Notes under the pieces: generated by a model | Seen by the model: only the letters and a program-made list of their open reading frames with translations | Database searches by the model: none | Told to the model about the DNA's origin: nothing | NCBI RefSeq assembly: GCF_016406105.1 | Contig: NZ_CP066308.1 | Coordinates: forward strand, 3,942,501 to 4,006,500 | Direction of reading: 5' to 3' | Source: Brevibacillus composti | GTDB lineage: Bacteria > Bacillota > Bacilli > Brevibacillales > Brevibacillaceae | DNA: 64,000 bases | Position numbers and translations under genes: made by a program | Shown: positions 2,827-46,311 of the stretch, one piece after another | How positions within the stretch are numbered: the stretch's first letter is position 1 | How the letters are laid out: each line of letters opens with the position of its first letter

Positions 2827-4194
2827 TTATTCGGATTCGAAATACTGCTTTAGCTTTTGCCGGAGTCCCCGCTCACTGATCCCCAGCTGATCAGCCGTTT
2901 TTTTCCGATGCCCCCCGTTTTTCTCCAGGGCGTGCAGGATGACGAGCCGTTCCGCTTCCTCCAGAGAGGCGTGAGAGGGGATGAAAAGGCCGTCTTGCCC
3001 TTGCTGGCTCATACGCCTTGCCGACTGCTGATTCACAACGGATGCCGGCAGATCATCCACCGTAATTACATCGCCCGAGGAGAGCGCTACGGCGTACTCG
3101 ATAATATTGGCCAGCTCTCTTACATTTCCCGGATAGGTGTAGGAAAAGAGCTTTTTCTTCGCCTCCGGACTGCACTCCTTCTTTTCTTTTCCCATATTGG
3201 CCGCAGAAAGGTCGAGAAAATGGTCTACCAAAAGAGGCACATCCTCCGGCCGCTCCCGCAGAGCCGGGGTGTGAATCGGAATGACATTGAGCCGGTAGTA
3301 CAAATCTTCGCGAAAAGCCCCCCTGGCGACTTCCTCCTCCAGATTCCGGTTCGTCGCCGCGATGAAGCGAATATCGACTTCCTTGGTCTGGTAACTGCCC
3401 AGCGGCATTACCGTCCGCTCCTGGATCACCCGCAGCAGCTTCGCTTGCAGAGCGAGCGGCATCTCGCCGATCTCATCGAGAAAGACGGTGCCGCGGTGCG
3501 AGCGCTCAAACAGGCCGGTTTTCGTCTGCAGGGCTCCGGTGAATGCGCCCTTCTCGTAGCCGAACAGTTCGCTCTCCAGCAAATTCTCGGGGATCGCCGC
3601 ACAGTTGATCACGGAAAATGCGGCATCCCGCCGCACCCCTTGAAAGTGGATGGCGCGGGCGACCAACTCCTTGCCCGTGCCGCTCTCCCCTGTAATGAGG
3701 ATATTGGACGGAATATCCTTCACTTTTTCAATAAGCTGATACAACTTTTGCATTTGCGGGCTTTTCCCGATCATTCCCGCATAGGACTGCTGCTGCTTGA
3801 CTGCGTCGCTCAAGACTTTTACCCGTTTGTGCAGCTTTTGAAATTCCAGCGCTTTGCCCACAAGCAGCTTTACTTCATCGAGATGAAGCGGCTTGGTCAA
3901 GTAATGGTAGGCGCCGGCCTTCATCGCGGCGACCGAAGATTCAATCGTCCCGAACGCGGTCATCATAATAATCGTGACATCGGGTCGGAGCTGTTTGATC
4001 TTCGGGAGCAGATCCAGTCCACTGATCACCCCCAGATTGAGGTCCAGCAGCACGCAGTCGATCTCCTCCTGCTGCAAGAGAGAGAGGGCGCTTCTCTCTT
4101 CCTTGGCTGTAAACACCTCAAAATCATCCTCTAAGGCGAACGACAGCGAGGCGCAAATAGCCGGTTCGTCGTCCACAATCAGTAATCTTGGCAT
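2827..4194 (-). CDS. Sigma-54-dependent response regulator, NtrC/DctD class
   Basis: Transcription activator of 455 aa with three domains in order. The receiver domain spans residues 1-120, with the acidic pair DDE at 8-10 and phosphoacceptor Asp51. The AAA+ domain has Walker A GESGTGKE at 169-176 and the sigma-54 contact loop GAFTGA at 216-221. A Fis-type helix-turn-helix lies near the C-terminus ([16 protein letters not shown]). The intact GAFTGA loop means it should activate sigma-54 promoters. The gene overlaps the 3' end of the upstream histidine kinase by 16 bases, so the two are translationally coupled. The most plausible target is the sigma-54 promoter about 120 bases downstream, in front of the TAXI transporter. 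Identity is very secure; the target is inferred. Confidence 0.95.
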
Positions 4195-35437: not shown

Positions 35438-36883
35438 TTATGCAGGCGAGCCTACATCGATGAGCGATTCAATCATGACCTTTTGGCTGTTTTTATCGAC
35501 CCACTGATGGGTTTCCGCCAGCAGTTTGCGGTATTCCGAGATTTGCAGCTCCACCTGATTGCGCGCGGTGCCGCCCAAGACGTTGCGGGCATTGACTACC
35601 GTCTCGACAGCCAGGGCTTCGTACACATCCTCGTCGATGAGCGCGGAGAATGATTTGTACTCCTCCATGGTCAGATCGAGCAGGTATTTCTGCTGTTCGA
35701 TGCAGTAGAGCACGGCACGCCCCACCACTTCATGCGCCTGGCGGAACGGCATCTCTTTGCGCACCAAGTAATCGGCCAGATCCGTCGCGTTGGAGAAGTC
35801 CTGCGTCACCGCTTGGCGCATGCGGTCGGTGCGCACCTGCATGGTCTGGATCATCGGCGTCAGCAGGGCCAGGGCCCCGTGCAGCGTAGCGACCGTGTCA
35901 AACATGCCCTCTTTGTCTTCTTGCATGTCTTTGTTGTACGCCAGGGGAAGCCCCTTCAGCACCGTCAACAGACCAAACAGATTGCCGTACACGCGTCCTG
36001 TCTTCCCGCGCACCAGCTCCGCCACGTCCGGGTTCTTCTTCTGCGGCATGATGCTGGACCCCGTGCAGAATGCATCGTCCAGCTCGACGAAGGAAAACTC
36101 CTGGCTGCTCCAGATGACCAACTCTTCGCACAGGCGGGAGAGGTGAGCCATCAGGAGGGAAGCGCTCGCCAGGAACTCCACGATAAAATCGCGGTCGCTC
36201 ACGGCGTCCATGCTGTTCAGATAAATGCCGTCGAACTGAAGCATCTCCGCCACGAAGGCGCGGTCGATCGGAAAAGTCGTCCCGGCCAGTGCGCCGGCAC
36301 CTAGCGGCAGGACATTGACCCGTTTCCAGCAGTCGCGCATCCGCTCGATGTCACGCTGCAGCATGGAGACATAGGCCATCATATGGTAGCCGAACAGCAC
36401 CGGCTGCGCGCGCTGCAGATGGGTATACCCCGGCATGACGGTATCGAGGTGGTTGTTCGCCTGCTCGACCAAAGCCTCTTGCAGGTACATCGCCAGCTGG
36501 ATGATCTCCATCAGCTTTTCCCGCAGATAGAGATGCATGTCGAGCGCCACCTGGTCGTTGCGGCTCCGGCCTGTATGCAGCTTGCCGCCGACAGGTCCGA
36601 TCTCTTCGATCAGCATTTTTTCGATATTCATATGCACATCCTCGTTTTCCACGAGGAACTCTACCTGTCCGCGCTCGATCTTCTCTTTTACCTTTTTCAG
36701 ACCGGCGATGATTTGTCTCACTTCATCCATCGGCAGGATGCCGCACTTGCCCAGCATTGCTACGTGAGCCAGGCTGCCGACGATGTCTTGCCGCCACATC
36801 TGCTTGTCAAAAGAAATGGAAGCCGTATATTCTTCTACGAGCTGATTCGTCGGCTTTGTGAAGCGTCCTCCCCACAGTTTCAT
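35438..36883 (-). CDS. argH: Argininosuccinate lyase
   Basis: Last step of arginine synthesis: cleavage of argininosuccinate to arginine and fumarate. The 481-aa protein of the fumarase/aspartase superfamily starts [20 protein letters not shown]. It contains [19 protein letters not shown], the catalytic-loop signature [12 protein letters not shown], and a C-terminal ArgH domain. The start overlaps the argG stop (ATGA), so expression is coupled to argG and thereby to the ARG operator upstream. The gene ends just before a strong terminator. Confidence 0.97.
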
Positions 36884-38139
36884 TGCGTAATCGCATCCTT
36901 TTCGTCCAAAATCTTGATCGGCGTCTTGGTGTTTTCATGCAGCACGCCTTCGTTCACCTGTGCGTATACCTTGGTAGGCAGGCCCCACAGCTTGATGAAT
37001 CCGATCGCCGCTTTATGGTCAAACTGGTCACCAGCGGCATACGTTGCCAGTTCGTGGCTGTACAGCGTCGAGTCGGATTTGCGTCCGACGACGATGGCGT
37101 GGCCTTTGTGCAGCTTCACGCGCACGACGCCCGTCACGTGTTTTTGCGTCTCTTCAATAAAGGCTTGCAGGGCATTGCGGATCGGCGAATACCAGAGACC
37201 TTCGTAGATCACCTGCGCCATTTTTTGCTCCACAATCGGCTTGAACTGCGCCACTTCGCGCGGCTGTGTCAGGAATTCCAGCTCGCGGTGAGCCAGAATC
37301 AGCGTCGTCGCAGCTGGCGTTTCGTAGACCTCGCGGGATTTGATGCCCACCAGGCGGTTTTCCACATGGTCGATACGTCCCACACCGTGGTTGCCGGCGA
37401 TTTTATTCAGCTTCAGGATCAGTTCGGACAGCGGCAGCTCTTCGCCGTTCAGGGCAGTCGGCACGCCTTTGACAAAGGTGATCTCTACTTCTTCGGCCTC
37501 ATCCGGCGCATCCGCGATGGATTTGGTCAGATCATAGGCACCTTCCGGCGGAGCCGCCCACGGATCTTCCAGAACGCCGCACTCGCAGCTTCTGCCCCAG
37601 AGGTTTTGGTCGATGCTGTATGGATTGTCCAGATCGATCGGGATCGGAATGTTGTTCTTGGCTGCATATTCGATCTCTTCTTCGCGCGTCCAGCCCCATT
37701 CGCGGACTGGCGCCACAATTTTCAAGTTTGGATTGAGCGCTGTAAAGGATACGTCGAAACGAACCTGGTCGTTTCCTTTCCCCGTGCATCCGTGGGCAAC
37801 AGCGACTGCTCCCTCTTTTTCCGCGATCTCTACCAGCACGCGGGAGATCAGATAACGGGACAGGGCAGATACCAGCGGATACTTGCCTTCATACATCGCG
37901 TTTGCTTGCAGGGCAGGCAGTACATATTCGCGGGCGAAAGCTTCTTTGGCATCCACGACGATCGATTTCAATGCGCCGACTTTCAGCGCCTTCTTTTGAA
38001 TGAAGTCCAGATCTTTTCCTTCCCCTACATCCAGCGCTACAGCAATGACGTCATAATTGTAAGTATCTTGCAGCCACTTGATTGCGACAGATGTATCTAA
38101 ACCGCCAGAATAGGCCAAAACAATTTTTTCTTTTGCCAT
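36880..38139 (-). CDS. argG: Argininosuccinate synthase
   Basis: ATP-dependent ligation of citrulline and aspartate. It starts [20 protein letters not shown] at ATG 38139 (419 aa) with AAGGAGAG upstream; the P-loop-like AYSGGLDTS is the N-type ATP pyrophosphatase motif. Further signature segments are [15 protein letters not shown] and [13 protein letters not shown]. The length is in the usual 400-420 range. It is first in argGH and has a promoter covered by two ARG boxes. The argGH unit lies about 4 kb from the remaining arg genes of this window. Confidence 0.97.
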
Positions 38140-38173
38140 CGGTTTCTCTCTCCTTACATAATCGAAGATTGTT

Positions 38174-38211
38174 CTTGAGTAATTATACAAACGAACTAAT
38201 AAAAATACAAT
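38174..38211 (-). promoter_or_regulatory. argG promoter with tandem ARG boxes (AhrC/ArgR operator)
   Basis: Two 18-base ARG-box-like sequences, at 38174-38191 and 38194-38211 (AACTAATAAAAATACAAT on the plus strand), are separated by two bases. They resemble CATGAATAAAAATKCAAK. They overlie a promoter on the minus strand: TTGTAT (38205-38210), 17 bases, TATAAT (38182-38187). Arginine-bound AhrC would block it. Confidence 0.8.
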
Positions 38212-38245
38212 ACCTTTTTCTTTGGGAGCAGCTGAGAGAAAGGGA

Positions 38246-38277
38246 TTGACTTTGACGTATGCGTAAAGGTGTACAGT
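38246..38277 (+). promoter_or_regulatory. MerR-type promoter with long spacer and dyad operator
   Basis: TTGACT (38246-38251) and TACAGT (38272-38277) are 20 bases apart, the long spacer of MerR-family promoters. Between them is the dyad ACTTTGACG-TATG-CGTAAAGGT. It directly precedes the MerR gene, so autoregulation is likely. Confidence 0.75.
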
Positions 38278-38300
38278 AAAGTTGTCAGGAGGTGAATACC

Positions 38301-39065
38301 GTGGAATACACCGTGCAAAAGCTGGGGCAATTAGCCGGAATCAGCACCAGAACCCTTCGGTATTACGATGAGATTGGCATTCTGAAGCCAGCCCGAATCA
38401 ATTCCTCAGGATACCGGATTTACGGTCAGGCTGAAGTGGATCGCCTCCAGCAAATCCTCTTTTACAAAGAGCTGGGGGTTCCGCTCGAGCTGATCAAAGA
38501 AATCGTAACGGCCCCTACCTTTGATCGGGAAAAAGCGCTGAAAGAACATCGCCGGCAGCTGCTCGACAAGCGCAAGCAGCTCGACCTCTTGATTGTCAAC
38601 GTCGAAAAAACCATCGCCGAGATGGAAGGGAGAATCAAGATGACGGACAAAGAAAAATTTGAAGGCTTCAAACAACAACTGCTGGATGAAAATGAACAAA
38701 AGTACGGCAAAGAGATCCGGGAGAAATACGGGGAGGATACGGTCAACAAGTCCTATGAAAAACTGAAGAACATGACGCAGGAAGAGTACGATGAAGTGAC
38801 GCGGATCGCAAACGAACTGTACGCCACCCTGGCCGAAGCCTACAAGACCGGCGATCCGGCGGGCGAGCTGGCCCAAAAAGCGGCCGGCTTGCATAAGCAA
38901 TGGCTGCTCTTTCATTGGAGCGATTACAGCAAGGAGGCACATGCCGGACTTGCCCGCATGTATGTCGAAGATGAACGGTTTCGGGCTCATTACGATGAAA
39001 AGCAGCCCGGCACGGCAGCGTTTCTCCGAGATGCGATCCTGATTTTCACCGGTCAGGATCAGTAA
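38301..39065 (+). CDS. MerR family regulator with TipAS ligand-binding domain
   Basis: Activator/repressor of 254 aa. The N-terminal winged helix ([52 protein letters not shown]) is classic MerR. A dimerisation coiled coil follows (about 80-115), and then a TipAS-type antibiotic-recognition domain (about 120-254, [20 protein letters not shown]). TipA proteins bind thiopeptides or other multidrug ligands, so it may control drug response, but no efflux gene is adjacent. GTG 38301 lies eight bases after AGGAGG; an in-frame GTG at 38292 overlaps the SD. A strong terminator follows. Confidence 0.9.
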
Positions 39066-39066
39066 G

Positions 39067-39123
39067 AAGGAACAAGGGTGTACCGACGGATGGATAGATC
39101 CCGGTACACCCTTGTTCCTTTTC
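39067..39123 (+). terminator. Terminator of the MerR gene
   Basis: A perfect 16-bp stem GGAACAAGGGTGTACC/GGTACACCCTTGTTCC with an 18-base loop, followed by TTTTCTC, starting at the stop codon. The remaining bases up to 39266 hold no gene I can support. Confidence 0.9.
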
Positions 39124-39266
39124 TCTCGGAGACTGGTGATCGACAAAAGAACGGGAAACCGCCTCGCCGAAGAAATGATCATCCGCAATTTCTCCGAGGT
39201 GCAGTACAGCTTGGACGACACCCTCCCGTGACTTGACGGACGGAGAAGACGCTCCTTTGGCTCCCT

Positions 39267-39698
39267 TTATCCCGCTGTGGGATAAGGCACCTCCGGAACA
39301 TACTGGGCTCCCTTCTTCTCGGCAATCCAGGCCAGCTCTGCCCGCGCGAGTCGTTCAAAATTTTCCGCCACATGGATGTCCCCTTCTGCTCTCCAGCCCT
39401 CGATGATCGGGTACAGCGGGATAAAATATCCATTTATAAACCACATGTCAAACAACAGATCGGGGTGGACCAGGCCATTCTTATGGAGCACGCCCACCAT
39501 CTCGAAAAATCCGTAAAGCGTGACGAACTGCCGGAAGCCTTCGCTACCCCGCGGATGGAGCCGCATAAAAGACTCATACGTCCACGGCTCGCCGAGAAAG
39601 GTGCTGCTAAACCACCGTTTGGCCTCTCGCAGCCGGTCCGATTCAAACTGGTCGTACAGCTTCAATACAATGTCAGCATCCTGATAGGTTGGGATCAT
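39267..39698 (-). CDS. DUF4760-like conserved hypothetical protein
   Basis: A small protein of 143 aa if translation starts at ATG 39698 (MIPTYQDADIVLKLYDQFES), with GGGAGAG about eleven bases upstream; a longer in-frame reading to 39833 exists but lacks an SD. The helical pattern ADIVLKLYDQ, EAKRWFSSTFLGEPW and MVGVLHKNGLVHPDLLFDMW resembles the DUF4760 family of uncharacterised proteins. There is no signal peptide or membrane helix. Both neighbours are in separate transcripts. Function unknown. Confidence 0.65.
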   Translation of the reverse strand: MIPTYQDADIVLKLYDQFESDRLREAKRWFSSTFLGEPWTYESFMRLHPRGSEGFRQFVTLYGFFEMVGVLHKNGLVHPDLLFDMWFINGYFIPLYPIIEGWRAEGDIHVAENFERLARAELAWIAEKKGAQYVPEVPYPTAG

Positions 39699-39859
39699 TC
39701 TTTGTTCTACTCTCCCTTTCTCTTCTGTGTGTAGACTTCTCCCATAATTATCCACGCAGTTGGGGATTGGCACAAGCATATTCATTCCGAGATTTGGCCT
39801 GATCAAGGGCAATAGAGCGGAGCCTCGCTGCAAAAGAAAAACAGTTACAGTCGGATGAT

Positions 39860-41197
39860 CTAGTCGATCACCTCCTGTAACTGTTTGGTTTCGTGCCCAT
39901 CTTGCTGGATGATTTTCTCCAGTTCTTCTCGCGACAACTGATTGACGACCCGAATAAAATGCTGGGCTAACTCCGAATCAAACTGCGTGCCAGCCCCCCG
40001 TCTGATCTCCTGCAGCGCATCCTCTACCGGAAGACCTTTGCGGTATGGCCGGTCGGCCACCATGGCATCAAATGCGTCCGAGATTGCGAGGATACGCGCC
40101 ATGAGCGGGATGTCCTCGCCTTTTAAGCCATCCGGATATCCCTTTCCATCCATTCTTTCGTGATGAGAACGAATGGCAGGCAGCAACTCATGAAACATGC
40201 CTGCTTGCAAAATAATGTCATATCCAATCACCGTATGCTGCTTGATCTGGTCGTATTCTTCCGGTGTTAATTTCCCTTTTTTATTTAGAATCCTGTCTTC
40301 AATGCCGATTTTCCCGATATCGTGCAAAATTCCACCGAAATACACTTCCTCCACTTTTTCCGACGACAGGCCGATCGCTTTCGCAATTTCCCGTGCCCAG
40401 TGTGCGACCCGCTGGGAATGGCCGCTCGTGTAATGGTCGCGAGCATCGATTGAGGCGGCCATTGTCGTGAGGAAGCGGTGGTTGAAGGTTTTGATTTCCT
40501 CTACTTTTTGCTGTAGTTTCTGAACATTACTATAGTATTGGTGAAAGACGTAGCTGATTGTAATAAAAGCAATCATCATAGGGATTAACGTAAGCAGACC
40601 GTGTGATTCTACCAGACGGGACCCTACACCTGCCAATACCATGAGGAGCAGGTATGTAGATGTAAATCCTTTCGCCATTTCTTTGACCGTTTCTATCCAG
40701 CCTTTGTTATAAAAATACGAGATTCCAAGACCGCATAAAATCAAATTGACCAACCAATACACAACGGCTAGAAAAAGGTCTGCAAGAATTGGTGAAATGG
40801 CATTTATACTAACTATCCAATCTTTTAGAAATCCTACAGTCCAAATTGTCATGACAAGCTGACCAATATTCACGGCAGCTTTAATGACATTTACCCTCGT
40901 TAACGAAGAAATAATAAGGGCTTCAATGACAGCACACCACACACCAACCGAAGTTCCAAAAAGTAGTATCCCCGAGAAGATGACGGCATTATTCACGGTC
41001 AAGATGGTGTTTGACAGTCGAACTGGAGTAAATGTCGAAAGAATAGTCAGGAGAGTATAAGCAGACAATACTCCCCAGTGATCACGAGACTGCCAATCAA
41101 AAAAAGACGAATAAATGATAAGAATTGCTCCCAGAACAAATCCAAATTGGACAACTGTACCCTTGGCAATTCTTCGCAAACTAGTTTTTGGCTGCAT
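39860..41197 (-). CDS. Membrane-anchored HD-GYP domain protein, probable c-di-GMP phosphodiesterase
   Basis: A 445-aa protein. The N-terminal half (about 15-215) has six or more hydrophobic helices resembling a MASE-like sensor. The cytoplasmic C-terminal half is an HD-GYP domain: RDHYTSGHSQRVAHWAREIA, GGILHDIGKIGIEDRILNKK, HTVIGYDI, and the defining HHERMDGKGYPDGLKGEDIP. All metal ligands expected for HD-GYP are visible, so it should hydrolyse c-di-GMP. It overlaps the end of the DUF5317 gene by 17 bases and so is coupled to it. The operon is headed by two c-di-GMP-II-like RNA elements, suggesting feedback by its own substrate. Confidence 0.92.
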   Translation of the reverse strand: MQPKTSLRRIAKGTVVQFGFVLGAILIIYSSFFDWQSRDHWGVLSAYTLLTILSTFTPVRLSNTILTVNNAVIFSGILLFGTSVGVWCAVIEALIISSLTRVNVIKAAVNIGQLVMTIWTVGFLKDWIVSINAISPILADLFLAVVYWLVNLILCGLGISYFYNKGWIETVKEMAKGFTSTYLLLMVLAGVGSRLVESHGLLTLIPMMIAFITISYVFHQYYSNVQKLQQKVEEIKTFNHRFLTTMAASIDARDHYTSGHSQRVAHWAREIAKAIGLSSEKVEEVYFGGILHDIGKIGIEDRILNKKGKLTPEEYDQIKQHTVIGYDIILQAGMFHELLPAIRSHHERMDGKGYPDGLKGEDIPLMARILAISDAFDAMVADRPYRKGLPVEDALQEIRRGAGTQFDSELAQHFIRVVNQLSREELEKIIQQDGHETKQLQEVID

Positions 41198-41732
41198 AGC
41201 TTTTACCTTCTCGAAGTTGTAGTAGCGAGATGGGTTTATTCATTAAGCGTTGCACCAGCAAAAATGCTCCGAGCATGATAAAAATATCGCCGATGCTAAT
41301 CACCCTCGGGATAATCGACGGCATATAAATGACGTCTGTTAAGAATGGAAGATTCGAGGCTTCTGTTAACACACTGTGTTTAAAATTTGTGCCGTTGATG
41401 ACCGGTTCTAAATCATATGGCAATCTTTTCGCCTGCTCCAGATCGATTGGCATCTTTCCTCGATTAGTCCAGATCGCCAAGGCATTGAGAAACCAGCCAA
41501 CCATAAAAATCCTCATATCTTCATACTGACGATTAAATACGAAAAAACCCAAAATGAGCACATAGGCTACGGATATGAAAACACCGCTCCATTTGGAAAA
41601 AAAAGCTGCACAAACTTGAAGAATAATGCTCCCAACGAGTAGCCCGACCTTATAAAATTTTGGTAACTCCTTTACTCTACCTCCCCGTAAAAGGGCAACA
41701 ATAAAAGAAAAGCAAATCACATCCAAAAGCAT
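41181..41732 (-). CDS. DUF5317 membrane protein
   Basis: A 183-aa integral membrane protein with about five hydrophobic segments (for example LLVGSIILQVCAAFF, VFISVAYVLILGFFVF and IFIMLGAFLLVQRLM). A conserved-looking extracellular loop has NRGKMPIDLEQAKRLPYD and HSVLTEASNLPFLTDVIY. The pattern agrees with DUF5317, a family often found before HD-GYP genes. ATG 41732 follows GGAGG; an upstream ATG overlaps that SD. A hairpin separates it from the preceding 25-aa peptide gene. It might be a receptor or regulator for the HD-GYP partner; this is inference only. Confidence 0.8.
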   Translation of the reverse strand: MLLDVICFSFIVALLRGGRVKELPKFYKVGLLVGSIILQVCAAFFSKWSGVFISVAYVLILGFFVFNRQYEDMRIFMVGWFLNALAIWTNRGKMPIDLEQAKRLPYDLEPVINGTNFKHSVLTEASNLPFLTDVIYMPSIIPRVISIGDIFIMLGAFLLVQRLMNKPISLLQLREGKSYAAKN

Positions 41733-41752
41733 GTAACTTTCCTCCAAAGCTT

Positions 41753-41790
41753 AAGAAAAAACACCACTCAACCAAGCGGTGTTTCTTCTT
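41753..41790 (-). terminator. Hairpin/attenuator between peptide gene and DUF5317
   Basis: AAGAAAAAACACC pairs with GGTGTTTCTTCTT, 12 of 13 pairs, 12-base loop. On the minus strand the 3' arm ends in TTTTTTCTT. It starts nine bases after the peptide stop and ends about 20 bases before the DUF5317 start, so it would reduce expression of the two downstream genes relative to the peptide. Confidence 0.7.
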
Positions 41791-41798
41791 AAACATTA

Positions 41799-41876
41799 TT
41801 AGCCAATGTGGAAGTTCGCCGAAGTAGCAGCTACGATTGCAACAACCATCATGATAGCAACGATCCATTTTTTCAT
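41799..41876 (-). CDS. 25-residue hydrophobic small peptide
   Basis: A short gene starting at ATG 41876, eight or nine bases after AAGGAGGG, encoding MKKWIVAIMM, a run of Val/Ala/Ile, then SANFHIG. It resembles a minimal signal peptide or membrane-spanning peptide with a polar C-terminal tail (ATSANFHIG). An ATG two codons earlier overlaps the SD. The good SD, its position between the tandem RNA elements and an attenuator-like hairpin, and the compact length support it being translated. It could be a secreted signal peptide, a membrane micro-protein regulating DUF5317/HD-GYP, or a leader peptide. I know of no named family. Confidence 0.65.
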   Translation of the reverse strand: MKKWIVAIMMVVAIVAATSANFHIG

Positions 41877-41904
41877 GCCCATTTCCCTCCTTATATTAAA
41901 TAGT

Positions 41905-41977
41905 GGAAAACAGCTGGATTCGCTATTTGCTACTGCAAGGACCAAGCGACCAGATAAAGTCCTCGCGCGTTTTCTCC
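41905..41977 (-). promoter_or_regulatory. c-di-GMP-II-like riboswitch, copy 2 (proximal)
   Basis: On the minus strand stem a, CGAGGAC/GTCCTTG, encloses the 5' half of a pseudoknot TCGCT, which pairs with AGCGA downstream; a short hairpin lies between. The flanks GG-TCGCT-TG and AGCGA-A-TCC follow the c-di-GMP-II layout. An outer stem AAAAC/GTTTT closes the element. It ends 12 bases before the SD of the 25-aa peptide. The 3' arm TTTTCC could alternatively pair with GGGAAA next to that SD. Confidence 0.65.
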
Positions 41978-41987
41978 TTTTCAATGA

Positions 41988-42066
41988 AAAGGCCGGATTC
42001 GCTACTCGCTCCATACAGACCAAGCGACCAAATACAGTCTGTACTTCTTCGCAGCTTCTTGCCTTT
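41988..42066 (-). promoter_or_regulatory. c-di-GMP-II-like riboswitch, copy 1 (distal)
   Basis: It has the same architecture as copy 2: stem a is TACAGAC/GTCTGTA (compensatory changes relative to copy 2), pseudoknot TCGCT/AGCGA, shared TGGTCGCTTGGTC and GTAGCGAATCCGG. The outer stem is AAAGGC/GCCTTT. The 3' arm can instead form the hairpin CCTTTTC-ATT-GAAAAGG with the linker between the copies, so two states are possible. Confidence 0.65.
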
Positions 42067-42068
42067 AT

Positions 42069-42096
42069 ATTACACGAAACTGACAATTTTCGGCAA
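42069..42096 (-). promoter_or_regulatory. Possible promoter of the tandem-riboswitch operon
   Basis: TTGCCG (42091-42096), 16 bases, TGTAAT (42069-42074). The start would fall near 42062, at the first bases of the distal aptamer. Match is moderate. Confidence 0.35.
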
Positions 42097-42158
42097 TGGT
42101 AGATTCGTAGTCTATTCGCTTCAATTCAACCTAGGAACATATACCTAGAACTATGTCC

Positions 42159-43130
42159 TCACACAACTGCGGCCATGACGGCTTTTTGTGCATGTAGTCT
42201 ATTTTCAGCCTGATCAAACACGACGGAGTGAGGACCATCGATCACGCTGGAAGAGACTTCTTCCTCACGGTGGGCAGGCAGGCAATGCAGGAAAATGTAG
42301 GACGGGCTCGCGTGGCTGACCAGCTCGTCGTTTACCTGGTAAGCGGCAAAATCGTTCAAACGCTGTTCGTTTTCCTTTTCAAAGCCCATGCTGGTCCAGA
42401 CATCGGTGTAGACGACGTCGGCGTCTTTGACCGCTTCGATCGGATCGTGGGTCACGAGCAGTTTTCCGCCGCTTGTTTGCGCATAAACTTTTGCCTGCTC
42501 TACGATTTCCTCATTCATTTCATATCCTGGCGGCGTGGCGATTCGCACATCCAGACCGAGCAGGGCAGCCGCCAGCACGAGCGAGTTGGCGACGTTGTTT
42601 CCGTCTCCCACGTATGCCAGCTTGATGCCTTTCAGCTTGCCCTTGTGCTCCCAGATGGTCAGCATGTCAGCCAGGGCCTGGCACGGATGGAACTCATCCG
42701 TCAGACCGTTGATGATCGGGATGGTGGCATGCTTCGCCAGCTCCTCCACGCCCGCGTGGGAGAACGTGCGAATCATGATCACATCTACGTAGCGGGACAT
42801 TACTTTGGCCGTATCGCTGATCGGCTCGCCGCGTCCGAGCTGCAGCTCCTTGCCGCTCATAAACATCGCCATGCCGCCCAGTTGGTGCATCCCTACTTCG
42901 AAAGAGACGCGGGTGCGGGTAGACGCTTTGTCAAATATCATGCCCATGGTTTTGCCCACAAGCGGTTGATACGGCTGCCCGCTCTTTTGCAGTTGCTTGA
43001 TATGGACGGCCAGCTCCAGTAGCTGCATCAGTTCTTCCCCGGTAAACTCGTCGATGCGCAGCAGATCCTTCCCCTTAAAATTGGCCCACTGCACGTTTGG
43101 AAATTGATCCAATATCTTCACAGATTGCAT
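42159..43130 (-). CDS. argF: Ornithine carbamoyltransferase
   Basis: Makes citrulline from ornithine and carbamoyl phosphate. It starts [20 protein letters not shown] at ATG 43130 (323 aa) with AGAGGTG upstream, overlapping the carB 3' end by 56 bases. Carbamoyl-phosphate site [20 protein letters not shown], and the ornithine/catalytic [10 protein letters not shown] are present. As last gene of carA-carB-argF it is translated from the carA promoter. Anabolic rather than arc-type, judged by context. Confidence 0.95.
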
Positions 43131-46100
43131 GCCCAACACCTCTTTTCTCAGAAATGGATTGTACATATAAATCAAATGTTTCGGTCGATGTAAACAGCGG
43201 CACACCCAGCTGCAGGGCACGGCTTCGCAGGGCGAATCCGCTTCGTCCGCGTCGGTTTCCTTTGGTCGCCGTGATCATGGCAAAAGCGACGGGCTGTGCT
43301 TGCACCAGCTCGGTAAGTTCCTGCTGGCCGCAGATCTCGTACGCGATCGAAAAGCCTGCATTCCTCATCCATTCGGCAGTGCCCGGTGTCGCTGCCCAGA
43401 CAGCTCCCAGCTCCTGCAGACGCTCCAGAGCGGGCAGTACAGCCGCTGTCTTATCTGCATCGGCCAAGGATACCAGACAGATCTGGCCTTCCTGCCACTT
43501 GCCAAAGATATTGTCCTTAAAGCAAAATGCTTTGCCTGCCGCCTCGGGAAATGTAGACCCCAGTCCGAGCACTTCCCCTGTCGACTTCATTTCCGGTCCC
43601 AGTACCGGGTCGACGCCGGTCAGCTTGACGGTGGAGAAGACAGGTGCCTTGACCACGGCAAACGGAATATCGGGCAGCAAACCGGTGCCGGCGCCCATCT
43701 CTTTCAGTTTTTCGCCCAATTGGGCACGGACGGCCAGCTCAACCATCGGAATGCCGGTAACCTTGCTCGTGATCGGCACGGTTCGCGAAGCACGCGGGTT
43801 TACTTCCAGGACGTAGACTGTCCCTTCGCTGATGACGAACTGGATATTGATCAGCCCGACTGCCCCCATCTCACGGGCGATCGCTTCCGTATAGCGGGCA
43901 ATGGTCTCTTTGCACGGCTCCGTCAAATTGGGTGCCGGGAACAGGGCGACACTGTCTCCCGAATGTATGCCTGCCTTCTCTACGTGCTGGTAGATGCCCG
44001 GGATCAGGACGGATTCGCCGTCGCAGACCGCATCCACTTCTGCTTCCTGGCCGGGTACGTACTTGTCGATGAGGAGCGGGAAGAACGCCGCGCTGTTTGG
44101 ATGATTCAGCCACTCGGCAATCATCGCCGACAGCTCTGCCTGGTCGTGCACCACGACCATTCCCTGACCTCCGATCACGTAGGAAGGACGGAGCAGCACG
44201 GGATAGCCGATCTCTTCGGCAGCGCTGACAGCCTCCTCGATAGTCGATACGCCCCTGCCGGGTATGTGCGGGATCTCCAGCTTCCGCAGCATCTCGTAAA
44301 AGAGCTCGCGATCCTCTGCCCGCTCGATCGCTTCCAGCTTGGTCCCCAGTATGGCGAGGCCTGCCGCTTCCAGCTTGGCAGCGAGGTTGATCGCGGTCTG
44401 TCCGCCGAACTGCACCATCACGCCGTCTACCTGCTCCCGCTCCGCTATGTGAAGCACATCCTCCGCGTGCAAGGGTTCAAAGTAGAGGTGATCTGCGGTC
44501 GCGTAGTCGGTACTGACCGTCTCCGGATTGTTGTTGACGACGACTGCGGCCATTCCCTTTGCCTGCAAAGCTTTTGCGGCATGCACCGAACAGTAGTCGA
44601 ATTCGATGCCCTGCCCGATTCGGATCGGACCTGAACCGAGCACCAGTATCTTTTTCCCAGACAAAGTCTCCACTTCATCGACACCTTGCCAATCGGAGTA
44701 GTAATAGGGCGTCTGCGCGTCGAACTCTGCGGCACAGGTATCGACAATTTTATAAGTAGGCTGGATGCCGTATTGCTGGCGAAGCTGCTTCACTTCTGCC
44801 GGGGTCCGCCCGGTGCAGGCGGCGATCGTCTCATCCGTGAAGCCGCGCTGTTTGGCTTCCCGCAGCAGTTCGGCATGCAGCAAATCGCTTTCCGCCAGCT
44901 TGTTTTCCAGCGAGACGATCCTGGCCAGGCTGCGGAGGAAGAAGGGGTCAATCCCCGTCCATTCGTGCAGCTCGCTTTCCGAGCATCCCCGGCGAATCGC
45001 TTCGGCGAGCGCAAACAGCCGGATATCGGTTGCTTCCCGGCCGAGCCGGATCAGCGTGTCGCGATCCGCCTCGGCCAGCTCCGGACGGTGCAGATGGGTG
45101 CAGCCCAGTTCGAGGGAGCGGACTGCCTTCAAAATTCCTGCTTCCAGATTGCGGGCGATGGCCATCACTTCTCCCGTCGCTTTCATCTGGGTGCCCAGTT
45201 CTCTGTCCGCCAGCGGAAATTTGTCAAAGGGCCAGCGCGGAATTTTCACGACAACGTAGTCCAGCGTCGGCTCAAAACTGGCGTAGGTGTACCCGGTGAT
45301 CGGATTGACCACTTCATCCAGGTGATACCCCAGCGCCAGCTTGGCCGCGATCCGGGCGATCGGATAGCCGGTGGCTTTCGATGCCAGTGCGCTGGAACGG
45401 CTCACCCGCGGGTTTACCTCGATGAGGTAATAGTTGTCCGAATGCGGATCCAGCGCGAACTGGATGTTGCATCCGCCGACGACTCCCAGCGCGCGGATCA
45501 CTTTGGTGGAAACACTGCGGAGCATCTGATACTGCCTGTCGGTGAGCGTCTGGGACGGCGCGACGACGATGCTGTCACCCGTATGGATGCCCACCGGATC
45601 GAGATTTTCCATGTTGCAGACGATGATGCAGGTATCATTGGCATCACGCATTACTTCGTATTCGATTTCTTTCCACCCTTTGACGCTGCGCTCGATGAGC
45701 ACTTGGTTGATCGGGCTGGCGGCGATTCCGTTTGCTGCTACTTCCCGGAGACTCGCTTCGCTGTCGGCGATTCCTCCGCCAGCGCCGCCGAGCGTGTAAG
45801 CGGGACGGACGATGACAGGATAGCCGATGGAGGATGCGAACTTGACGGCCTCCTCCACGGATTCAACAGTCGCGCTTTCCGGCACGGGCTCCCCGATTCT
45901 CTTCATCAGCTGCTTGAACAGCTCGCGGTCTTCTCCGTTCTGAATCGCAGTCAGGGGTGTACCCAGCAACTCCACTCCGTACTTTTCCAGTACGCCTGCT
46001 TCCGAAAGTGAAACGGCCAGATTCAGCCCCGTCTGCCCACCCAGTGTAGGAAGCAGGCCGTCTGGACGCTCCTTGGCGATAATCGCCGTGAGAGAGTCCA

Positions 46101-46311
46101 GCGTCAGCGGCTCCAGATAGACCTTGTCGGCAACCTGCTGATCAGTCATGATCGTGGCAGGATTGTTGTTGACCAACACGACCTGGACGCCCGCTTCCTG
46201 CAGGGACAGGCAGGCCTGGGCCCCCGCGTAGTCGAATTCGGCTGCTTGCCCGATGACGATCGGACCGGAGCCAATCACCAGCACTTTTTGGATGTGGGTC
46301 AATTTAGGCAT
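43075..46311 (-). CDS. carB: Carbamoyl-phosphate synthase large subunit, arginine-linked
   Basis: A 1078-aa ATP-grasp enzyme that makes carbamoyl phosphate from bicarbonate, ammonia and two ATP. It has two homologous halves, each beginning with a dinucleotide-like [20 protein letters not shown] or [20 protein letters not shown]. Both ATP-grasp metal regions are visible ([20 protein letters not shown] and [14 protein letters not shown]). The C-terminal allosteric domain is present. Position within the arg cluster under an ARG operator indicates the arginine-regulated isozyme, distinct from the pyr-operon enzyme. The start overlaps carA by eight bases. Confidence 0.96.

Follow-up and report, generated by a model that had tools for sequence, protein, structure and literature searches.

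The window (the whole stretch of DNA analysed, 64 kb) carries on its minus strand a leader RNA followed by genes for a small peptide, a DUF5317 membrane protein and an HD-GYP protein. This cassette lies between argF (with carB beyond) and argG-argH (window 35438-46311), and argF was present on 32 of the 33 family stretches fetched. In the order of transcription, the features are:

42067..42096, minus strand: likely sigma-A promoter, TTGCCG - 18 nt - TAATAT, read from the sequence
41982..42065, minus strand: copy 1, c-di-GMP-II aptamer (Rfam RF01786, 56.8 bits against a cut-off of 53.5)
41976..41992, minus strand: linker hairpin, which uses the P1 3′ strand of copy 1 and is an alternative to P1 (fold comparison)
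41906..41981, minus strand: copy 2, remodelled c-di-GMP-II-type aptamer (20.1 bits; stem covariation; matches of its own model)
41882..41911, minus strand: expression platform, in which the ribosome-binding site (41882-41890) is a possible pairing partner of the P1 3′ strand of copy 2 (41905-41911)
41799..41876, minus strand: 25-codon peptide gene MKKWIVAIMMVVAIVAATSANFHIG (profile presence in the family; selection)
41751..41784, minus strand: intrinsic terminator downstream of the peptide gene (all 24 genus loci tested have a terminator-like hairpin here)
41181..41732, minus strand: DUF5317 membrane protein, 183 aa (Pfam PF17248, E 2.3e-30)
39860..41197, minus strand: HD-GYP phosphodiesterase, 445 aa, with six hydrophobic segments in its N-terminal half (HD_5, E 8.5e-41; hydropathy)

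The peptide gene starts right 3′ of copy 2 and the ribosome-binding site and is followed by the terminator. It is the direct target of the leader, and the first-pass annotation, which had placed the RNA upstream of an HD-GYP operon, was wrong or incomplete on this point. It was right that an HD-GYP gene lies downstream: the protein has an intact HHERMDGKGYP, which fits the motif HHExxDGxGYP. An in-frame ATG at 41882 would extend the peptide by MG. A peptide profile was found in 35 of 39 family genomes, covering all 7 genera. Across 24 genus loci, pN/pS was 0.13 in codons 1–21, which fits a real, selected protein gene, and 0.44 in codons 22–25. The peptide is constant up to ..IVAATSA and variable thereafter, with NFHIG in the window and NYNIG, NYHIG, NWTSW and others elsewhere (16 distinct last-five sequences among 34 peptides; tail length 5 to 15 residues). 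Its positive N-terminus and hydrophobic core are signal-like, and an AxA-like motif directly precedes the variable tail in the home family and in the largest other group; the first 20 residues could also be a membrane anchor. Pfam gave no match for the peptide at E 0.001, and no NCBIfam score came close to a cut-off.

The terminator-like hairpin separates the peptide gene from the DUF5317 and HD-GYP genes in all 24 genus loci tested, which suggests that the peptide is made in excess of the receptor; outside the family, the filter found no terminator in 10 of 30 loci. The contig fragment G009 is counted among the 25 leaders described below and excluded from the 24 genus loci used for pN/pS, terminator and Mantel counts. 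G017 has no tandem leader and carries its peptide elsewhere, in a peptide-DUF5317-HD-GYP cassette (L111) with no recognised riboswitch, on a stretch where argF was not found.

The DUF5317 protein next to the peptide gene gave no other Pfam match at E 0.001. Residues D133 and S146-x-G148-D149 are kept in at least 95% of the 57 sequences aligned, a hint that the protein may be an enzyme or bind ions within the membrane; an aspartyl protease was considered. Single-sequence AlphaFold2 models of DUF5317 (pLDDT 46) and the HD-GYP protein (pLDDT 41) were unusable. When the HD-GYP protein was searched against genome contigs, four partial matches (about 190–216 residues, 38–46%) were obtained in distant organisms.

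The tandem leader and its expression platform

Both copies were found where the first-pass annotation had put them on the minus strand, with the stems it described and the TCGC/GCGA pairing. Its assignment of both to c-di-GMP-II was upheld for copy 1, which passed the RF01786 cut-off (E 6e-10 over the 64 kb window), and failed for copy 2, which reached E 0.17 in a 701-base search, lies far under the gathering cut-off and, in the window, lacks RF01786 model positions 16–21. In copy 1, the Rfam consensus GCAC/GUGC is replaced by UCGC/GCGA through two compensatory pair changes; these bases we take to be the pseudoknot of c-di-GMP-II. Throughout the genus, copy 2 has variable sequence at the former P3 site, often able to form a small hairpin. 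Since 20.1 bits misses the Rfam cut-off, copy 2 was classed as a derived relative and not as a member.

RF01786 matched at E 0.001 or better in all 26 genus genomes and over its cut-off in 11. The two-copy leader was present in 25 of the 26, in line with the tandem arrangement first proposed; the exception, G017, has a match at another site only. A second-copy model was built from 16 of the genus's 21 distinct second copies, and 150 first-look candidates were scored with it per genome. In 25 of 26 genomes it gave exactly two matches at E 0.1 or better, namely the two copies of this leader. In the alignment of the 16 distinct sequences, 95.1% of cells were paired and 18 cells were changed on both sides (shuffled mean 4.5). 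The pairing of copy 2 is thus kept in relatives, with compensatory changes in 6 of the 8 main-stem pairs. The pseudoknot pairs are kept in 16 of 16 sequences and are invariant, hence give no covariation signal within the genus, and the core is likewise invariant. Taken alone, copy 2 is not acceptable as c-di-GMP-II; the genus comparison rescues it as a putative aptamer. Searches for ligand-pocket residues gave nothing useful for copy 2, so loss of the pocket was judged by Rfam positions alone.

Tandems were also found in G037 and G038 (two other genera of the family) and in G116 (another family). Their second copies (46–50 bits) are nearer to RF01786 than those of the genus, yet under its cut-off. 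Because of these, the tandem arrangement looks older than the genus, with copy 2 apparently remodelled within it. The two copies of the window look like c-di-GMP sensors. Among the 35 peptide genes of the home family, 27 have tandems, 2 have singlets and 6 have no riboswitch match at E 0.001. By eye, L112 (G035) has a degenerate c-di-GMP-II leader with no match at E 0.001. Singlet c-di-GMP-II RNAs (64–69 bits) also occur elsewhere in four genomes of the genus (L002 of G001, L003 of G009, L004 of G021 and L005 of G017, around position 1500); a terminator-like hairpin follows each and, in three, a gene that by reading resembles a globin-type sensor.

All 25 genus leaders that were extracted contain the sequence ATTGCCGAA, the extraction itself having demanded it. 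In 26 of 27 tandem leaders, the P1 3′ strand of copy 1 folds onto purines just 3′ of itself, and compensatory changes were found in the resulting linker hairpin. When the aptamer was omitted from the fold, the P1 3′ strand of the last aptamer covered the ribosome-binding site in 31 of 31 leaders (a set that includes singlets, one leader from another family, and L112). The platform hairpin is modestly stronger than mononucleotide shuffles (mean z −1.6; 0.1 to 0.4 in L023, L026 and L029). Since the strand covers the site without the aptamer, c-di-GMP is predicted to switch translation ON and should do so for the peptide.

Accessibility of the ribosome-binding site was calculated with an ensemble model for 28 tandem leaders. 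Mean accessibility was 0.15 with the copy 2 strand on the site and 0.46–0.60 with that strand in P1. The copy 1 strand had no effect while the copy 2 strand covered the site (0.15 vs 0.15); with the site uncovered, placing it in P1 raised the mean from 0.46 to 0.60 (+0.14). Formation of copy 1 P1 added at least 0.2 over copy 2 P1 alone in 10 of the 28 leaders, among them that of the window (0.35 with copy 2 P1 alone, 0.91 with both P1 strands in place), and in three (L024, L064, L145) the site stayed closed (0.17 or less) despite both. The coupling energy between the aptamers was not favourable (mean +1.0 kcal/mol; below −0.3 in 6 of 28). A domino mechanism, in which P1 strand exchange would couple both aptamers energetically, was dropped because the model gave no favourable coupling on average, despite the alternative linker pairing in 26 of 27 leaders. 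As for the steeper or logic-gated response proposed for two copies, the model is mixed: the coupling energy does not favour it, and the opening in 10 leaders, window included, would be AND-like; AND-like use of both copies is thus possible in some species and not general.

The peptide tail is exchanged together with DUF5317 and the HD-GYP membrane half

The sister genomes G003 and G025 share 94% identity in argF, 99% in argG, 98% in argH and 97% in the catalytic half of HD-GYP. Their tails are NWTSW and NYHIG, respectively, and they share only 62% in DUF5317 and 42% in the membrane half of HD-GYP; the DUF5317 and membrane half of G003 are nearest to those of other genomes with NWTSW tails. Nucleotide identity between the two falls from about 95% to about 57% at peptide codons 20–21 and returns at about residue 220 of HD-GYP. 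G002 and G011 gave the same pattern in the two pairs profiled with close relatives; here the left breakpoint lies at peptide codon 22 and the right one near HD-GYP residue 290, slightly inside the HD domain. In these two independent cases, the left breakpoint thus falls at codons 20–22 and the right one within the HD-GYP gene, at positions that differ (about residue 220 vs 290) and do not mark one domain boundary; neither exchange took in the start of the peptide, and the catalytic half was spared wholly or for the most part.

Partial Mantel correlations given argF were calculated for 24 genus genomes. The tail correlated with the membrane half (r 0.92, p 0.0002) and with DUF5317 (r 0.91), compared with r 0.16 (p 0.07) for tail vs catalytic half and r 0.45 for peptide start vs membrane half. 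For 32 family genomes, the values for the tail were 0.74 with the membrane half, 0.67 with DUF5317 and a weak 0.25 (p 0.014) with the catalytic half. Among pairs with argF at least 93% identical (n = 59), all 30 with equal tails have membrane halves at least 82% identical, and the 29 with different tails comprise 19 at 63% or below, nine at 75–82% and one at 95%.

In the membrane-half tree, NWTSW (100/100) and NYNIG (95/90) form clades, which were rejected for the catalytic-half tree (p-AU 0.00018 and 0.0021, values that are optimistic because these groups were picked after the data had been seen). NFHIG, NYHIG and NWHIG are scattered on both trees, and none of them is a single clade in the membrane-half tree. 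Counted across all 15 tail types, the trees differ little: 16 changes for the membrane half vs 18 for the catalytic half (least possible 14). The genes of the cassette are neighbours, so that a correlation would arise even if linked DNA were simply exchanged, and physical linkage accounts for part of that between tail and membrane half. Left breakpoints within three codons of a 25-codon gene, between its constant part and its tail, go beyond what linkage explains. As read from the breakpoints, the exchange in both cases took in the tail and DUF5317 along with the membrane half of HD-GYP.

The cassette in other families

DUF5317 was found at E 0.001 in 95 of 398 genomes of a class sample. Outside the family, lower-scoring DUF5317 (about 125 bits or less) was accompanied by a peptide gene in all 30 loci fetched (L114-L126, L132-L148), encoding 25–38 aa and lying 210–340 bases before the DUF5317 match. 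Lower-scoring matches left unfetched were G051 C54, G155 C34, G088 and G242 (fragments, contig edges, weak). The sole miss among 36 loci in the peptide-gene scan was L127 (132-bit DUF5317). For the high-scoring type (over 140 bits; G079 left out of the fetched set), an ORF passed the peptide filter in 1 of 30 and 0 of 3 loci, and the one was taken as spurious. Upstream of a DUF5317 of this type, with no peptide gene by the filter, L151 (G218) has a c-di-GMP-I RNA (3189-3277, 73.2 bits).

The leaders of the 30 outside loci were varied: c-di-GMP-I over cut-off just upstream in 4 (L118, L122, L136, L144), tandem c-di-GMP-II slightly under cut-off in 1 (L145), weak c-di-GMP-II of 26–29 bits in 3 (L120, L137, L138), a conserved leader not listed in Rfam in 10, and no recognised leader in 12. 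By motif, the third gene was of HD-GYP type in 15 and a histidine kinase in 7; the script left 8 unmatched, and more types can be read by eye. Pfam searches with three third genes gave GGDEF + HD_5, PAS + HisKA + HATPase, and HD_5 + HATPase. Profiles of the membrane halves form a chain, from home HD-GYP to other HD-GYP (96.8%), from those to the kinases (88.4%) and from the kinases to an HD-HATPase group (99.9%); its ends do not match directly (0.5% and 4.5%), the 0.5% being the hhalign probability of the home family against the kinases, which are linked through intermediates only. Two genomes, G185 (L135, L136) and G399 (L122, L143), have a pair of cassettes apiece: in one, c-di-GMP-I goes with a histidine kinase, and in the other, the unlisted leader (165 bits in G185, 51 bits in G399) goes with an HD-GYP output.

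In one other family, 18 of 41 genomes have a single copy of the unlisted leader, and nine of these were used to draw its model. A peptide gene follows in 17 of the 18 loci, the remaining locus ending about 60 bases past the match. The 5′ end of the leader is complementary to its own ribosome-binding site and start codon. A search of Rfam with one example, L116, returned nothing at E up to 1, and for the remaining loci of the ten no match reached gathering level at this position. As c-di-GMP sensors are found at this gene in relatives, the leader is a candidate for a new riboswitch class, possibly a c-di-GMP sensor. In L116, the peptide lies 244 bases before the DUF5317 match; further loci with this leader are L152-L169. 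In one leader group, the tails differ in 17 of 17 peptides.

A proposed c-di-GMP-gated peptide signal and its alternatives

The locus is probably best explained as a c-di-GMP-gated pheromone with its receptor, a ComQXP-like pattern built from other parts. Weighing against this reading are the six home-family peptide genes that lack a riboswitch match, the 12 outside loci that lack a recognised leader, the differing right breakpoints, the modest strength of the platform hairpin and the three modelled leaders whose site stays closed. Binding of c-di-GMP would let P1 of the last aptamer form, its 3′ strand would leave the ribosome-binding site, and the peptide would be translated. The peptide would be exported by its own signal-like segment and cleaved after the AxA-like motif to give a short variable tail (NFHIG here). 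DUF5317 and the membrane half of HD-GYP would together recognise this tail in a type-specific manner, and recognition would alter the activity of the phosphodiesterase half; we infer both the binding and the sign of the effect on the enzyme. Production of such a private signal would depend on c-di-GMP and its receptor would set c-di-GMP, so that c-di-GMP feedback is plausible and would probably run via the peptide.

The peptide might instead stay unreleased, as a small membrane subunit of a DUF5317-HD-GYP complex with a tail that coevolves by contact. Its hydrophobic core and positive N-terminus, and the exchange of its tail together with the membrane half, would suit this role as well; we nevertheless hold it unlikely, since an AxA-like motif sits right before the variable part (home family, largest other group), tails of 5 to 15 residues that differ in every member of one group are poorly accommodated, and the terminator suggests that peptide output exceeds that of the receptor. 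A leader peptide (attenuator) or hydrophobic type I toxin, to which a short hydrophobic ORF followed by a terminator might point, scarcely deserves credence given the purifying selection on codons 1–21, a tail that tracks the receptor membrane half, and the empty Pfam (E 0.001) and NCBIfam searches.

Two further alternatives concern the RNA. On the first-pass reading, the RNA would act directly on the HD-GYP operon to give feedback, and its duplication would serve steepness or logic; strand and order are the same in the genus, read-through of the terminator is possible and 10 of the 28 modelled leaders open in an AND-like way. With a terminator-like hairpin before DUF5317 in 24 of 24 loci, a platform that covers the ribosome-binding site of the peptide and a coupling energy that is not favourable on average, we regard this as quite improbable. 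A stronger contender, towards which we incline somewhat less than away from it, is that copy 1 is the sole c-di-GMP sensor and that copy 2 of the genus has lost ligand binding and acts as a structural platform. The score of copy 2 (20 bits, without positions 16–21, vs 46–50 bits in G037, G038 and G116) and the clearly more open site with copy 1 P1 also formed (10 of 28 leaders, window included) favour it; the invariant core and covarying stem of copy 2 in 16 sequences, and the ineffectiveness of the copy 1 strand while the copy 2 strand is on the site (mean 0.15 both), argue against it.

The pheromone-receptor reading was compared with known systems. In agr of staphylococci, adjacent genes for a signal and a membrane receptor co-vary between relatives and define communication groups. 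Phr and SHP are short exported peptides with a variable C-terminal signal, received by cytoplasmic TPR or Rgg proteins. Like these, the peptide described here is short, has a variable C-terminus and is predicted to be exported, but no TPR or Rgg gene was found among the window neighbours scanned with Pfam. For the ComQXPA pherotype loci of Bacillus subtilis, the excerpt of PMC4408185 describes adjacent signal and membrane receptor genes that differ together among close relatives, the joint differences leading to communication groups. As in ComQXP and agr, signal and receptor sensor half are exchanged together between relatives; unlike there, the cassette's neighbour is DUF5317, with no ComQ or AgrB match (Pfam, E 0.001), the receptor in the window is an HD-GYP phosphodiesterase, histidine kinases occurring only in other families, and translation of the signal would be under a c-di-GMP riboswitch.

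By itself, the RNA is close to known kinds. Copy 1 shares the stems of c-di-GMP-II and passes its cut-off; copy 2 differs in lacking positions 16–21 and in its variable sequence at P3, and the target differs in being a peptide gene. Tandem c-di-GMP-II RNAs are already known: the excerpt of PMC9481103 gives 59 doublets and 9 triplets, most of which precede the gene of a surface anchor protein in Paraclostridium and its relatives. Compared with the tandems described in that excerpt, the target here is a peptide gene and the second copy of the window lies far under the Rfam cut-off. DUF5317 was named in no paper of the open-licence literature searched, and no description of the cassette (c-di-GMP riboswitch, small peptide, HD-GYP) was found there, some of the papers having been judged by title and abstract opening.

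As peptide signalling, a cassette of peptide and receptor controlled by c-di-GMP would be a new variant, perhaps more. On balance, and by a narrow measure, we favour an undescribed family of peptide-signalling systems in Bacillota, made up of DUF5317, a hypervariable tail that is secreted and a membrane receptor whose output can be exchanged (HD-GYP, GGDEF-HD-GYP, histidine kinase, HD-HATPase). Translation of the peptide would be gated by c-di-GMP through a pair of unrelated riboswitch classes and, within one family, through the unlisted leader, which may be a further c-di-GMP sensor. If this is true, intracellular c-di-GMP and private intercellular peptide languages, usually studied apart, would be joined in one cassette, DUF5317 would gain a role, HD-GYP proteins and kinases would gain a candidate ligand, and sequence would predict which strains should understand each other.
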